The position numbers and the translations under genes were made by a program. Source: Gemmatimonadota bacterium (lineage in GTDB: Bacteria > Gemmatimonadota > Gemmatimonadetes > Longimicrobiales > Gaopeijiaceae). From it: a stretch of 64,000 nucleotides of DNA. The DNA is taken from contig JAOTVL010000001.1 in the NCBI GenBank assembly GCA_029863525.1, positions 24,113 to 88,112 of the forward strand, in the 5' to 3' direction. Within the stretch, counting starts at the first letter, position 1, and the number at the start of each line of letters is the position of its first letter. The notes under the pieces were generated by a model that worked only from the letters and a program-made list of their open reading frames with translations, made no database searches and was not told the origin of the DNA. Shown one piece after another: positions 36,470 through 43,740 of this stretch.

Positions 36470-37741
36470 TCAGGATCCGGGGTTAAGGAGTGCTGCGAGC
36501 TCTTCGGGACTGAGTTCGTCGGCGGACCGGCTGCCCAATCCCTGCGGCGATCGTGACTTGCGACCCCGTTTCGCCGCGGAACGGCTCTCCGTCTGTGGAG
36601 TGCCCGCATAGTCGTAGTCGGGAAGGTGGATCTTCTGGACCTGGCGCCCAAGTCGATGTTCGAGGCCCTTGATCGCGCCGAGGTCCCCGGCGGTCACGAA
36701 GGTGACGGCGGTTCCGGTCGCACCGGCGCGTCCTGTGCGGCCGATCCGGTGCACGTAGTCCTCGGGGTCTAGTGGCACGTCGTAGTTCACGACGTGGCTG
36801 ATCCCCTCGACATCCAAGCCGCGCTGCGCGACGTCGGTCGCGACGAGCACCTTCACCTTGCCCGTCGCGAAACGATCGAGTGCACGGGTACGGTGCTTCA
36901 TGTGTTTGTTGGAGTGCATGACGTCCGTGGAGATCCCCTCGCGCCGCAGCCGCGCCTCGAGCACGTCGGCCCCCGCCTTGGTCCGGGTGAAGACCAGTAC
37001 CTGGTCCCACTCCGGGTCGGTCACCAGAGAAAGGAGCAGATCGGGCTTCTTCTCCGGCTTCACCGAGTAGAAGACCTCTTCGACGCCCTCGGCCGTGGTG
37101 CCCGAGGGAGTCGCCTCGATCCATATCGCTTCTTTTGTCATGCGCAGCGCGAGGTCGTGGACCCCGTGTGGCATGGTCGCGCTGAACAGCATGGTCTGTC
37201 GCTCCCGCGGCATGCCGCGGAACACCTCCTCAATCTGGGGTCGGAATCCCATGTCGAGCATCCGATCGGCCTCGTCGAGGACCAGGTAGTGCACCTTCGA
37301 GAGGTCGACCCGGCCCGACTTCATGTGATCGATGAATCGGCCAGGAGTCGCGACAATGACCTCGAAGCCCTGCTTCAGCGCATGGATCTGAGGCTCGTAA
37401 CCGACACCGCCGAAGATGGCTTCCGAGCGGATACTCGTGCCCTTGGAAAGAGCAACGGTATCGTCGGAGACCTGCTGTGCAAGCTCTCGCGTGGGGCACA
37501 GGACGAGTACCTGGAGGCCCTTGCCGGCGTCGATGCGCTCGAGCGCCGGAATCATGAAGGCGGCGGTCTTCCCGGTGCCGGTTTGGGCGATGCCGACCAC
37601 ATCCTGGCCCTTCAATCCAGCCGGGATCGCGTCGAGCTGAATCGGGGTCGGATGCACCCAGCCGAGTGCCTCGACAGCGGCAAGGCGGTCAGTGGATAGA
37701 CCGAGGTCTTCAAATCGTGCAGAATTCAATCGTTCGTCCAA
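36470..37741 (-). CDS. DEAD-box ATP-dependent RNA helicase (RhlE-like)
   Basis: The 423-residue protein has every DEAD-box motif: Q-motif FEDLGLSTDRLAAVEALGWVHPTPIQLDAIP, motif I AQTGTGKT, Ia PTRELAQQ, Ib TPGR, II DEAD (VLDEADRMLDMGF), III SAT, V VATDVAQRGLDVEGISHVVNYD and VI HRIGRTGR. The tail after about residue 375 is short and basic (SRSAAKRGRKSRSPQGLG), as in RhlE/SrmB-type enzymes, with no DbpA-type RNA-binding domain. It unwinds short RNA duplexes in ribosome assembly or mRNA decay. It provides a useful contrast to the motif-less homologue at 41548-43080. Confidence 0.96.
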   Translation of the reverse strand: MDERLNSARFEDLGLSTDRLAAVEALGWVHPTPIQLDAIPAGLKGQDVVGIAQTGTGKTAAFMIPALERIDAGKGLQVLVLCPTRELAQQVSDDTVALSKGTSIRSEAIFGGVGYEPQIHALKQGFEVIVATPGRFIDHMKSGRVDLSKVHYLVLDEADRMLDMGFRPQIEEVFRGMPRERQTMLFSATMPHGVHDLALRMTKEAIWIEATPSGTTAEGVEEVFYSVKPEKKPDLLLSLVTDPEWDQVLVFTRTKAGADVLEARLRREGISTDVMHSNKHMKHRTRALDRFATGKVKVLVATDVAQRGLDVEGISHVVNYDVPLDPEDYVHRIGRTGRAGATGTAVTFVTAGDLGAIKGLEHRLGRQVQKIHLPDYDYAGTPQTESRSAAKRGRKSRSPQGLGSRSADELSPEELAALLNPGS

Positions 37742-41231: not shown

Positions 41232-41546
41232 ATGGCCGGCTACCGACGAAAGACCGCGTTCCCACCCAAGAGGGTGCTCGAGACCGCCGACGTGTTCCTA
41301 CCTGACATGGTCGGTCTGACTCGAGCCAACGCATCCGGGCACGCGGCGACGTACAACGGAGCGGAAGGGACGGTCACGATCTCGGCTCACCGTCATGGGC
41401 CGTATACGGAGGTCGTAGCGACCACCGACCGGCTCCGTACTTCGCGGCTCGACTACGAGGTACAACGTCTCCTCAACAGGCTACCGTACGAACCGGGAGA
41501 CGAAGGCGGACCGGGCTCGGGCGAGCCCAAGCTGGACGGCCCCTGA
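41232..41546 (+). CDS. Small protein of unknown function adjoining the pseudo-helicase gene
   Basis: The 104-residue protein (MAGYRRKTAFPPKRVLETADVFLPDMVGLTRANASGHAATYNGAEGTVTISAHRHGPYTEVVATTDRLRTSRLDYEVQRLLNRLPYEP) has mixed alpha/beta character, a basic N-terminus and a Gly/Glu/Pro tail. It has no signal or membrane segment. I do not recognise it. It ends one base before the GTG of the DEAD-box-like gene, so the two are almost surely translated together. A role with that protein or RNA is plausible but not shown. Confidence 0.65.
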   Translation: MAGYRRKTAFPPKRVLETADVFLPDMVGLTRANASGHAATYNGAEGTVTISAHRHGPYTEVVATTDRLRTSRLDYEVQRLLNRLPYEPGDEGGPGSGEPKLDGP

Positions 41547-41547
41547 C

Positions 41548-43080
41548 GTGAACTCATTCGAAGATCTGGGCATCGCCCCGGAGTTGGTCGAGGCCTTGGC
41601 GGCCGAAGGCATCGAGTCTCCGACTCCCTTGCAGGAATCGGCGATCCCGATGCTTCGGAAGGGTAACAACCTGGTGTTGGAGGCCGGACCTGGAAGCGGT
41701 TTGCTGGTCTCTTGGGCGACCGGCCTGCTCGACCATATCGAGCCTTCGGGAGCGGGCCGCATTCTCGTCGTCTGCGCATCCACCGAGGTCGCCGACCGAC
41801 TCGCGGGAGCGCTCGCCCCGGTCGCCGCGGCGACGGGGCATTCAGTCGCCGCGCTGGACTCGTCGTGGGCACTCCCCGAGCGGGCGGACGTCCTCTTCGG
41901 CGGCGCAGTCGAAGTGATCGGGGCGCTGCGAGCGGGCAGCGTCTCTGCCGACGCAATTGCCGCGGTCGTTTTCGACCAGGCGCAGCACTTCGAAGGACCG
42001 GATGCGCTCGGCGTCGTGGAGCAGGTCCTGGACTACGTTCCGGACGAGGCTCAGCGCGTATTGAGCGCCCTCCCCATGACACCCGCGGTCACGAGCCTGG
42101 TGGAGCGTTTGTTCAAGCGTACGATGACCCTGCCGGCACCGGCGGTCGACGTCGCCAAGCGGGGCGAGGTTCGCTTTCGCATCGCCCCCGAGCCCCGCGA
42201 GGACGCGGCACTGCGCGTCGTGGACGAGCTCTTGGCCGGCGGGGCGAGACACGCGTTGGTGTACTGCCGAAGTGCCGATCGCGCGGCGGACGTCGGTGAC
42301 CACCTCACCCTGCACGGGTTCACGGCAGGCGCACCGGGAGACGCGTCCGTCCCTGTGTGGCTCGGCATCGACGCGCTCGAGGCACGGGCTGCGTCCAAGG
42401 GCACCGAAGGGCTGGTCGTAGTGAGCTGTGATGTGCCGACCGACCCGGATATGCTCGATCGGCGGCATTCGATCGGTGAGGACAACGTCGTCATCGTCCT
42501 CCCGCGCGAGGTCGCCCACCTGAGAGCGCTGGGGCGGCGGACCGGATACCAGACGGTTCCGTTTCCACCTCCGCCCCGCCGCAACACCGAGGTCGATGAA
42601 CTCCGCTCGACGATCGAGAACGCGATCGAGGTGCTCGACACCGGTCCCTACCTCCTCGCGCTCGAGCCGCTGTTCGAGCGCTACGATCCGAGCGAAGTCG
42701 CCGCAGCCGTCGTCGCTCTGATGCGCAGCCGCCCGCCCGATGCGGTGTCCGACTCGACCTCCGCCAGCCAGAGCCCCCCCGCGCCCCGAACGGCGGCGGC
42801 CCGGGCCGCTTCGGTTCCCGCGTGGTCGAAGCTCTTCCTGAGCGTCGGCGAGCGGGATGGATTGCGCGTCGGTGACCTTCTCGGGGCGATCACGGGTGAG
42901 GCGGGGGTCCCCGGAGAGTCGGTGGGGAAGATCGACATCCACGAGAGTCATTCTCTCGTGGAGGTGCACGAGCCCGTCGCCCGTCAGGTCATTCAGGCCA
43001 TCAACGGAACGACGATCAAGGGTCGCTCGGTGCGGGTCGATTTCGATCGACCGCGCGCCACGAGTAAGCCGCGGCGCTGA
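41548..43080 (+). CDS. Catalytically degenerate DEAD-box-like protein with DbpA-type RNA-binding domain
   Basis: The 510-residue protein starts at GTG 41548. Its Q motif is intact (FEDLGIAPELVEALAAEGIESPTPLQESAIP, F4 and Q29), and the two RecA-like domains keep their order. Most ATPase motifs are lost: motif I reads AGPGSGLL (46-53) without the Lys-Thr pair, II is DQAQ (143-146) not DEAD, III is SAL not SAT, and Ia, Ib, V and VI are not recognisable. A linker (SDSTSASQSPPAPRTAAARA) leads to a well-kept DbpA/CsdA RNA-binding domain (428-500: KLFLSVGERDGLRVGDLLGAITGEAGVPGESVGKIDI...IKGRSVRVDF). It probably binds RNA without unwinding it. Codon use and reading frame look intact, so this is not a decayed gene. 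Confidence 0.85.
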   Translation: MNSFEDLGIAPELVEALAAEGIESPTPLQESAIPMLRKGNNLVLEAGPGSGLLVSWATGLLDHIEPSGAGRILVVCASTEVADRLAGALAPVAAATGHSVAALDSSWALPERADVLFGGAVEVIGALRAGSVSADAIAAVVFDQAQHFEGPDALGVVEQVLDYVPDEAQRVLSALPMTPAVTSLVERLFKRTMTLPAPAVDVAKRGEVRFRIAPEPREDAALRVVDELLAGGARHALVYCRSADRAADVGDHLTLHGFTAGAPGDASVPVWLGIDALEARAASKGTEGLVVVSCDVPTDPDMLDRRHSIGEDNVVIVLPREVAHLRALGRRTGYQTVPFPPPPRRNTEVDELRSTIENAIEVLDTGPYLLALEPLFERYDPSEVAAAVVALMRSRPPDAVSDSTSASQSPPAPRTAAARAASVPAWSKLFLSVGERDGLRVGDLLGAITGEAGVPGESVGKIDIHESHSLVEVHEPVARQVIQAINGTTIKGRSVRVDFDRPRATSKPRR

Positions 43081-43388: not shown

Positions 43389-43604
43389 CTACTTGTAGCG
43401 GTACGTGACTCGTCCGCGGGACAAGTCGTACGGCGACATCTCCACCTTGACCCGATCGCCCTCGAGCACCCGGATGTAGTTCTGCCGCATCTTGCCGGAG
43501 AGGTACGCCAGGACCTCGTGGTCGTTCTCCAGCTTGACCCGAAACGTCGCGTTGGGAAGGACCTCGGTCACGGTCCCTTCGATCTCGATTGCGTCTTTCG
43601 CCAC
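43389..43604 (-). CDS. infA: Translation initiation factor IF-1
   Basis: GTG at 43604 gives 71 residues, the normal IF-1 length: (M)[70 protein letters not shown]. This is nearly colinear with other bacterial IF-1 proteins, including the OB-fold motifs SGKMRxNYIRxxxGDxVxVExSPYDLxxGRxxYRYK. The track extends it upstream to 43709, but those residues are not part of IF-1; a GGAAG sequence sits 6 bp before the GTG. IF-1 binds the 30S A site during initiation. It stands apart from the usual ribosomal-protein operon, as in several phyla. Confidence 0.96.
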
Positions 43605-43740
43605 TCTACACTTCCGTTGAAATACTGGAGCGCTCATCCGCGCTCCTGGGGGCGCGATCCGTGTCGTATTGCACGAATTCGCAGCCGCGTACCTTAAAGC
43701 CGCGCTCATCCACTAGCAACGACCCTCCTCCCGATCGCAC

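Follow-up and report, generated by a model that had tools for sequence, protein, structure and literature searches.

Gene and domain layout

The window, by which we mean the whole 64,000-nucleotide stretch of Gemmatimonadota DNA analyzed here, carries a gene for a protein with the fold of a DEAD-box helicase and degenerate catalytic motifs (Table 1). An earlier note on this DNA described an open frame of 510 codons with normal codon use, and the description holds: the frame runs from a GTG at 41548 to a stop at 43080, and its G+C content by codon position (0.74/0.51/0.81) is typical of genes in this DNA. The protein scores 19.7 bits against the Pfam DEAD model, under the 26-bit cut-off, and the Pfam search gave it no match to Helicase_C. 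An internal control lies 4 kb away, where an ordinary DEAD-box protein with all motifs intact scores 171.7 bits in Pfam.

Table 1. Features of the pseudohelicase gene and its neighbors (positions in the window).
Feature	Position	Strand	Evidence or remark
104-aa conserved ORF, directly upstream, 1 nt before the pseudohelicase start	41232..41546	+	Homologues; AF2 pLDDT 87
Pseudohelicase gene, 510 aa, GTG start	41548..43080	+	Open frame; class-wide orthologues; dN/dS 0.11-0.16 in close pairs
RecA-like domain 1, residues 1-200, intact Q motif	41548..42147	+	AF2 pLDDT ~95; Foldseek to DbpA; F4 and Q29 conserved
Degenerate Walker A AGPGSGLL, residues 46-53, Lys/Thr replaced	41683..41706	+	Motif alignment of orthologues
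Degenerate motif II, DQAQ for DEAD, residues 143-146	41974..41985	+	Motif alignment
RecA-like domain 2, residues 201-345, shortened at motifs V and VI	42148..42582	+	AF2 model; profile alignment; motif spacing
LDRRHS, residues 303-308, at the place of motif VI (HRIGR.GR); clade-specific short form	42454..42471	+	Motif alignment
Predicted dimerization domain, DeaD/CshA type, residues ~346-395	42583..42732	+	Profile alignment to CshA C-terminus; Pfam DeaD_dimer in relatives
Disordered linker, residues 396-424	42733..42819	+	pLDDT<50 at 399-422; sole relaxed part (pN/pS)
DbpA-type RNA-binding domain, residues 428-497, most conserved part	42829..43038	+	Pfam PF03880, E=4e-25
IF-1 (translation initiation factor)	43389-43709	-	Downstream, convergent with the pseudohelicase
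CshA/RhlE-like DEAD-box helicase, all motifs	36470-37741	-	4 kb from the pseudohelicase; syntenic in the family

An AlphaFold2 (AF2) model built from 40 orthologues shows a confident three-domain fold (mean pLDDT 90.2). The earlier note had proposed a structure prediction as a check, and the outcome agrees with its reading, the top solved-structure match in Foldseek being E. coli DbpA (7pmq, E=1.5e-26; 7pli, E ~1e-26) at 19% identity. The global TM-score of this match is low and its rmsd high, which would fit differing domain orientations.

The DbpA-type RNA-binding domain was correctly recognized in the earlier note; the dimerization domain was overlooked, and the origin of the protein is to be sought with DeaD/CsdA, not DbpA. 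In profile alignments to solved structures, the window protein aligns with CshA through the CshA C-terminal region. The Pfam DeaD_dimer model (PF25399) matches 25 of 40 family members at E<=0.01 and gives no match in the window protein itself. With a dimerization domain present, the layout is like that of DeaD/CsdA and Hera, not that of DbpA. DeaD/CsdA and Hera have the same domain order (RecA1, RecA2, dimerization, RNA-binding) and are its nearest kin in our tree, whereas the window protein lacks their Walker-A Lys/Thr, DEAD, SAT, and motifs V and VI, and its RecA2 is shortened. DbpA and YxiN have the RNA-binding domain and overall fold in common with it but are active ATPases specific for hairpin 92 of 23S rRNA, and they lack a dimerization domain. 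Owing to that domain, membership in DbpA proper was rejected in favor of the DeaD/CsdA type, and the protein would be better called a pseudo-DeaD/CsdA, with a Hera-like layout, than a pseudo-DbpA.

The 104-residue ORF directly upstream is a probable operon partner; among relatives in the families designated f1 and f2, the gap between its homologues and the pseudohelicase start is mostly about -4 to 30 nt. Its product has no Pfam or NCBIfam match, retains 16 invariant residues in 38 homologues, and is modeled as strand-helix-four-strand-helix, for which profile and fold searches returned weak matches (BamC, KA1, helix-grip-like). Within the family of the window genome, IF-1, the CshA-like helicase, a phosphatase, and an aminotransferase are syntenic near the gene. 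By blastp, none of these four was found near the examined copies in families f3, f4, f7, and f9, so the neighborhood is a weak functional clue.

Loss of the catalytic motifs

The Q motif is kept, with F4 and PTPLQ at residues 25-29, and both F4 and Q29 are conserved among orthologues. The earlier note had called Walker A, DEAD, and SAT degenerate, and each is so at its motif position. Walker A reads AGPGSGLL (46-53) in place of GKT, with G49 and G51 invariant in the orthologue alignment; motif II reads FDQAQ (142-146) and motif III SALPMT (173-178), with SAL/ALP where SAT would stand. None of motifs Ia, Ib, V, and VI is recognizable in the window protein, again as noted earlier, and the regions of V and VI have lost length as well. 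The stretch between motif IV and the "DxP" measures 72 residues in 47 of 47 active helicases and 19-64 in 109 family rows, and that between the DxP and the Gly behind motif VI measures 19 residues in active helicases as against 5-14 in the pseudohelicase family. These deletions are common to all family members, without overlap in length with active helicases. Motifs V and VI with their arginine fingers are missing from all 109 family rows of the spacing alignment; with this region shortened, the arginine fingers cannot be present.

Close relatives lack GKT and DEAD as well, which was the check that the earlier note had asked of homologues: among 40 aligned orthologues of the same genus, family, and order, none has DEAD, SAT, or HRIGR. 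GKT is kept only in the more distant families f3 and f9, in both cases without DEAD. The Walker-A Lys is lost in f1, f2, f4, f6, and f7, a count in which two of the rows showing K or R at this position (L183, L195) are alignment artefacts. The core is held in part in f1, f2, and f4, and in f6 and f7 the P-loop sequence is unrecognizable with the RNA-binding domain still present. One f4 protein (L169, from genome G083) has the letters DEAD at motif II, together with no Walker-A/P-loop Lys and no motif VI. As this series shows, with GKT retained in f3 and f9 and gone from f1, f2, f4, f6, and f7, the ATP site was dismantled stepwise. Judging from its lost catalytic residues, the window protein would be without ATPase activity, while the f3 and f9 proteins might still bind ATP.

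Two trivial explanations were rejected. Chance resemblance is ruled out by the fold, the profile alignments, and the tree, and by orthologues sharing the degenerate motif positions. A sequencing error or frameshift hiding the motifs is ruled out because independent genomes show the same.

Origin, distribution, and selection

In a tree of 61 proteins from which all motif columns were excluded, the 41 pseudohelicases form a single clade (support 100/100). This clade is sister to most active DeaD proteins (96/81) and is surrounded by DeaD proteins with the RNA-binding domain; the latter and the pseudohelicases group together, with CshA/RhlE-like proteins outside (100/99). The family has a single origin and shares common descent with the DeaD/CsdA/Hera lineage.

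The gene is present in 14 of 14 genomes of the same genus (one copy is a fragment), with identities of 60-70%, and every copy there that spans the motifs is degenerate. Almost every genome of the family and order has it. Across the class Gemmatimonadetes, the window protein has a match at 1e-22 in 100 of 149 genomes. With an f7 member as the query, the count is 135 of 149 at E<=1e-15, which is an upper figure since some matches may be active DeaD. The class-wide protein search gave no match in families f5 (5 genomes) and f8 (1 genome). Outside the class (f11), a phylum-wide search with a single protein returned only N-terminal matches of the ordinary-helicase type, and plasmid records yielded ordinary helicases alone, covering part of the query. 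The pseudohelicase family is class-wide in the Gemmatimonadetes, a class of soil and water bacteria, and is retained in most sampled genomes; the loss of its motifs dates to at least the age of the class.

Two close species pairs gave dN/dS values of 0.160 (L020/L021) and 0.106 (L017/L018), far from the value near 1 that the earlier note had named as a sign of recent decay. In wider species pairs dS is near saturation, so that their dN/dS is merely indicative. Constraint is spread unevenly along the protein. In the close pairs, pN/pS is 0.09-0.18 for the RecA-like part, and the RNA-binding domain has a pN of 0, with no amino-acid change in either pair. The linker (0.46-1.04 overall; 0.87 and 0.46 in the two close pairs) is the sole relaxed part. 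The low dN/dS and the pN/pS of the RecA-like part indicate that the gene is maintained, this part included. The protein thus combines a helicase fold, loss of the catalytic motifs, and a maintained gene, as expected of a pseudohelicase; the view put forward earlier, of a conserved pseudohelicase and not a decayed gene, is borne out by the degenerate orthologues and the dN/dS of 0.11-0.16.

Co-occurrence with active DeaD

When 39 relatives were searched for the DbpA-type domain, 37 had one or two copies. Where there is one, it is the pseudohelicase in all genomes except G046, in which a contig end truncates the dead copy. In at least nine genomes of at least 90% completeness (G002, G013, G016, G018, G020, G035, G039, G041, and G045), the pseudohelicase is the sole protein bearing this RNA-binding domain, and the same is true of the window's own genome (83% complete). 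Many other genomes hold both the pseudohelicase and an active DeaD of the same domain layout. Since the single-copy genomes carry the dead copy, the dead paralogue is the constant one and active DeaD the one that can be dispensed with.

Discussion

DEAD-box proteins are usually studied as ATP-driven machines. We consider it likely that the protein described here is a pseudohelicase derived from a DeaD/CsdA-type protein and kept as a non-hydrolysing, probably dimeric RNA-binding protein. A dead motor that has been kept under strong selection throughout a class most likely serves as an RNA-binding scaffold. A DeaD/CsdA-type DEAD-box protein would have been duplicated or split off in the ancestor of the class Gemmatimonadetes, and would have lost the segments with the arginine fingers (VI) and motif V as well as the DEAD box, after which selection may have retained it as a non-hydrolysing RNA binder. 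The predicted dimerization domain of DeaD type would most likely make it a homodimer, in which two DbpA-type domains could bind structured RNA at once. The RecA-like lobes, which would no longer close on ATP and RNA, might then offer a surface for contacts with proteins or RNA. RNA binding and dimerization are both predictions from sequence, and the simplest reading of this anatomy would be a dimeric protein that carries two RNA-binding domains and a non-cycling core.

With the RNA-contact motifs Ia, Ib, and V of the core gone, the predicted RNA binding would fall to the RNA-binding domain alone. In Hera and YxiN, guanine is bound through main-chain amides in this domain (PMC3695512). The corresponding positions in the window protein are V459, G460, and I462, of which G460 is invariant and I462 nearly invariant among orthologues. 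This conservation supports the prediction that RNA binding has been kept, without pointing to one target. YxiN K427 corresponds to G450 in the window protein, and in an alignment of printed sequences E. coli DbpA seemingly has Gly there too. RNA binding may not be a function common to all members, since one f7 protein (L187, genome G065) has lost the domain and has a Gly/Arg-rich tail at its end. Long RGG-rich tails also follow the RNA-binding domain in several other members (L036, L045, L052, L056, L183, L185, and others); the window protein has no such tail.

To name rRNA as the target and ribosome assembly as the process is speculative. Ribosome assembly is a plausible role, which we offer as a hypothesis because hairpin 92 is not bound by every CsdA-type RNA-binding domain (PMC8190605). 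The protein could instead bind mRNA or small RNAs and have nothing to do with ribosomes, for example as part of a complex for RNA decay or cold shock, and the RNA-binding domains of CsdA and Hera are indeed less specific than those of DbpA and YxiN (PMC8190605, PMC3695512). However, no decay enzyme was found beside the gene, and its neighbors include IF-1 and a CshA-like helicase, a general synteny of little weight; we regard this reading as unlikely.

The dead protein might also regulate active DeaD, either as a heterodimer through the common dimerization domain or by titrating RNA targets. Both proteins come from one stock and coexist with the same layout in many genomes. Yet the dead copy stands alone in at least nine nearly complete genomes (G035 is 99% complete) and in the window genome, so an active partner of the DeaD type cannot be obligatory, and a regulatory role seems quite improbable to us. 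We give still less credence to an ATP-binding, non-hydrolysing switch, in which the RecA pocket would bind nucleotide and signal by conformational change. The conserved Q motif and P-loop glycines G49 and G51 would suit such a switch, as would the GKT of f3 and f9, but the window's own family has lost Lys and Thr, the entire P-loop sequence is unrecognizable in f7 and f6, and the arginine fingers are deleted everywhere. Recent decay of the gene, to which the lost catalytic motifs might have pointed, is ruled out for practical purposes by the same losses in every motif-covering orthologue of the genus, family, and order, by a dN/dS of 0.11-0.16 with intact frames, and by an age no less than the age of the class.

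The reading as a retained, non-hydrolysing RNA binder has parallels in other pseudohelicases. In the accessible part of the 2022 report on it (PMC9539457), Utp25 is termed the first fully validated pseudohelicase. Utp25/Def of the yeast small-subunit (SSU) processome resembles the present protein in having a DEAD-box fold with degenerate motifs that has been kept in evolution; it differs in being eukaryotic and in its disordered N-terminus, and no DbpA-type domain is described in that part. The two are presumably of independent origin. The PriA of Deinococcus radiodurans is a bacterial DNA pseudohelicase in which helicase motifs have likewise been lost throughout a lineage and nucleic-acid binding has been kept (here predicted), but it is a DNA replication restart helicase and not an RNA DEAD-box protein (PMC4504706). 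In the open-licence literature we found no description of an equivalent bacterial DEAD-box pseudohelicase, and nothing relevant on DEAD-box work in Gemmatimonas or Longimicrobia. A bolder proposal, which we put forward only tentatively and hold to be doubtful, is that this family corresponds in bacteria to Utp25: an ancient pseudohelicase that defines the class and has turned into a structural factor in ribosome assembly or another RNP, kept even where active DeaD has been lost, with living intermediates of stepwise loss. Taken together, the families that keep GKT, those with part of the core, and those without a recognizable P-loop sequence would open the way to asking which functions of DEAD-box proteins can do without ATP.

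Standard annotation would call the protein a helicase or a "DbpA domain protein", and helicase counts in the class Gemmatimonadetes are therefore likely off. Named genome records carrying family members belong to Gemmatimonadota. Three clear Gemmatimonadota family members (L100, L102, and L105) lie on contigs of MAGs titled "Gammaproteobacteria bacterium", which are probably mislabelled or mixed bins.
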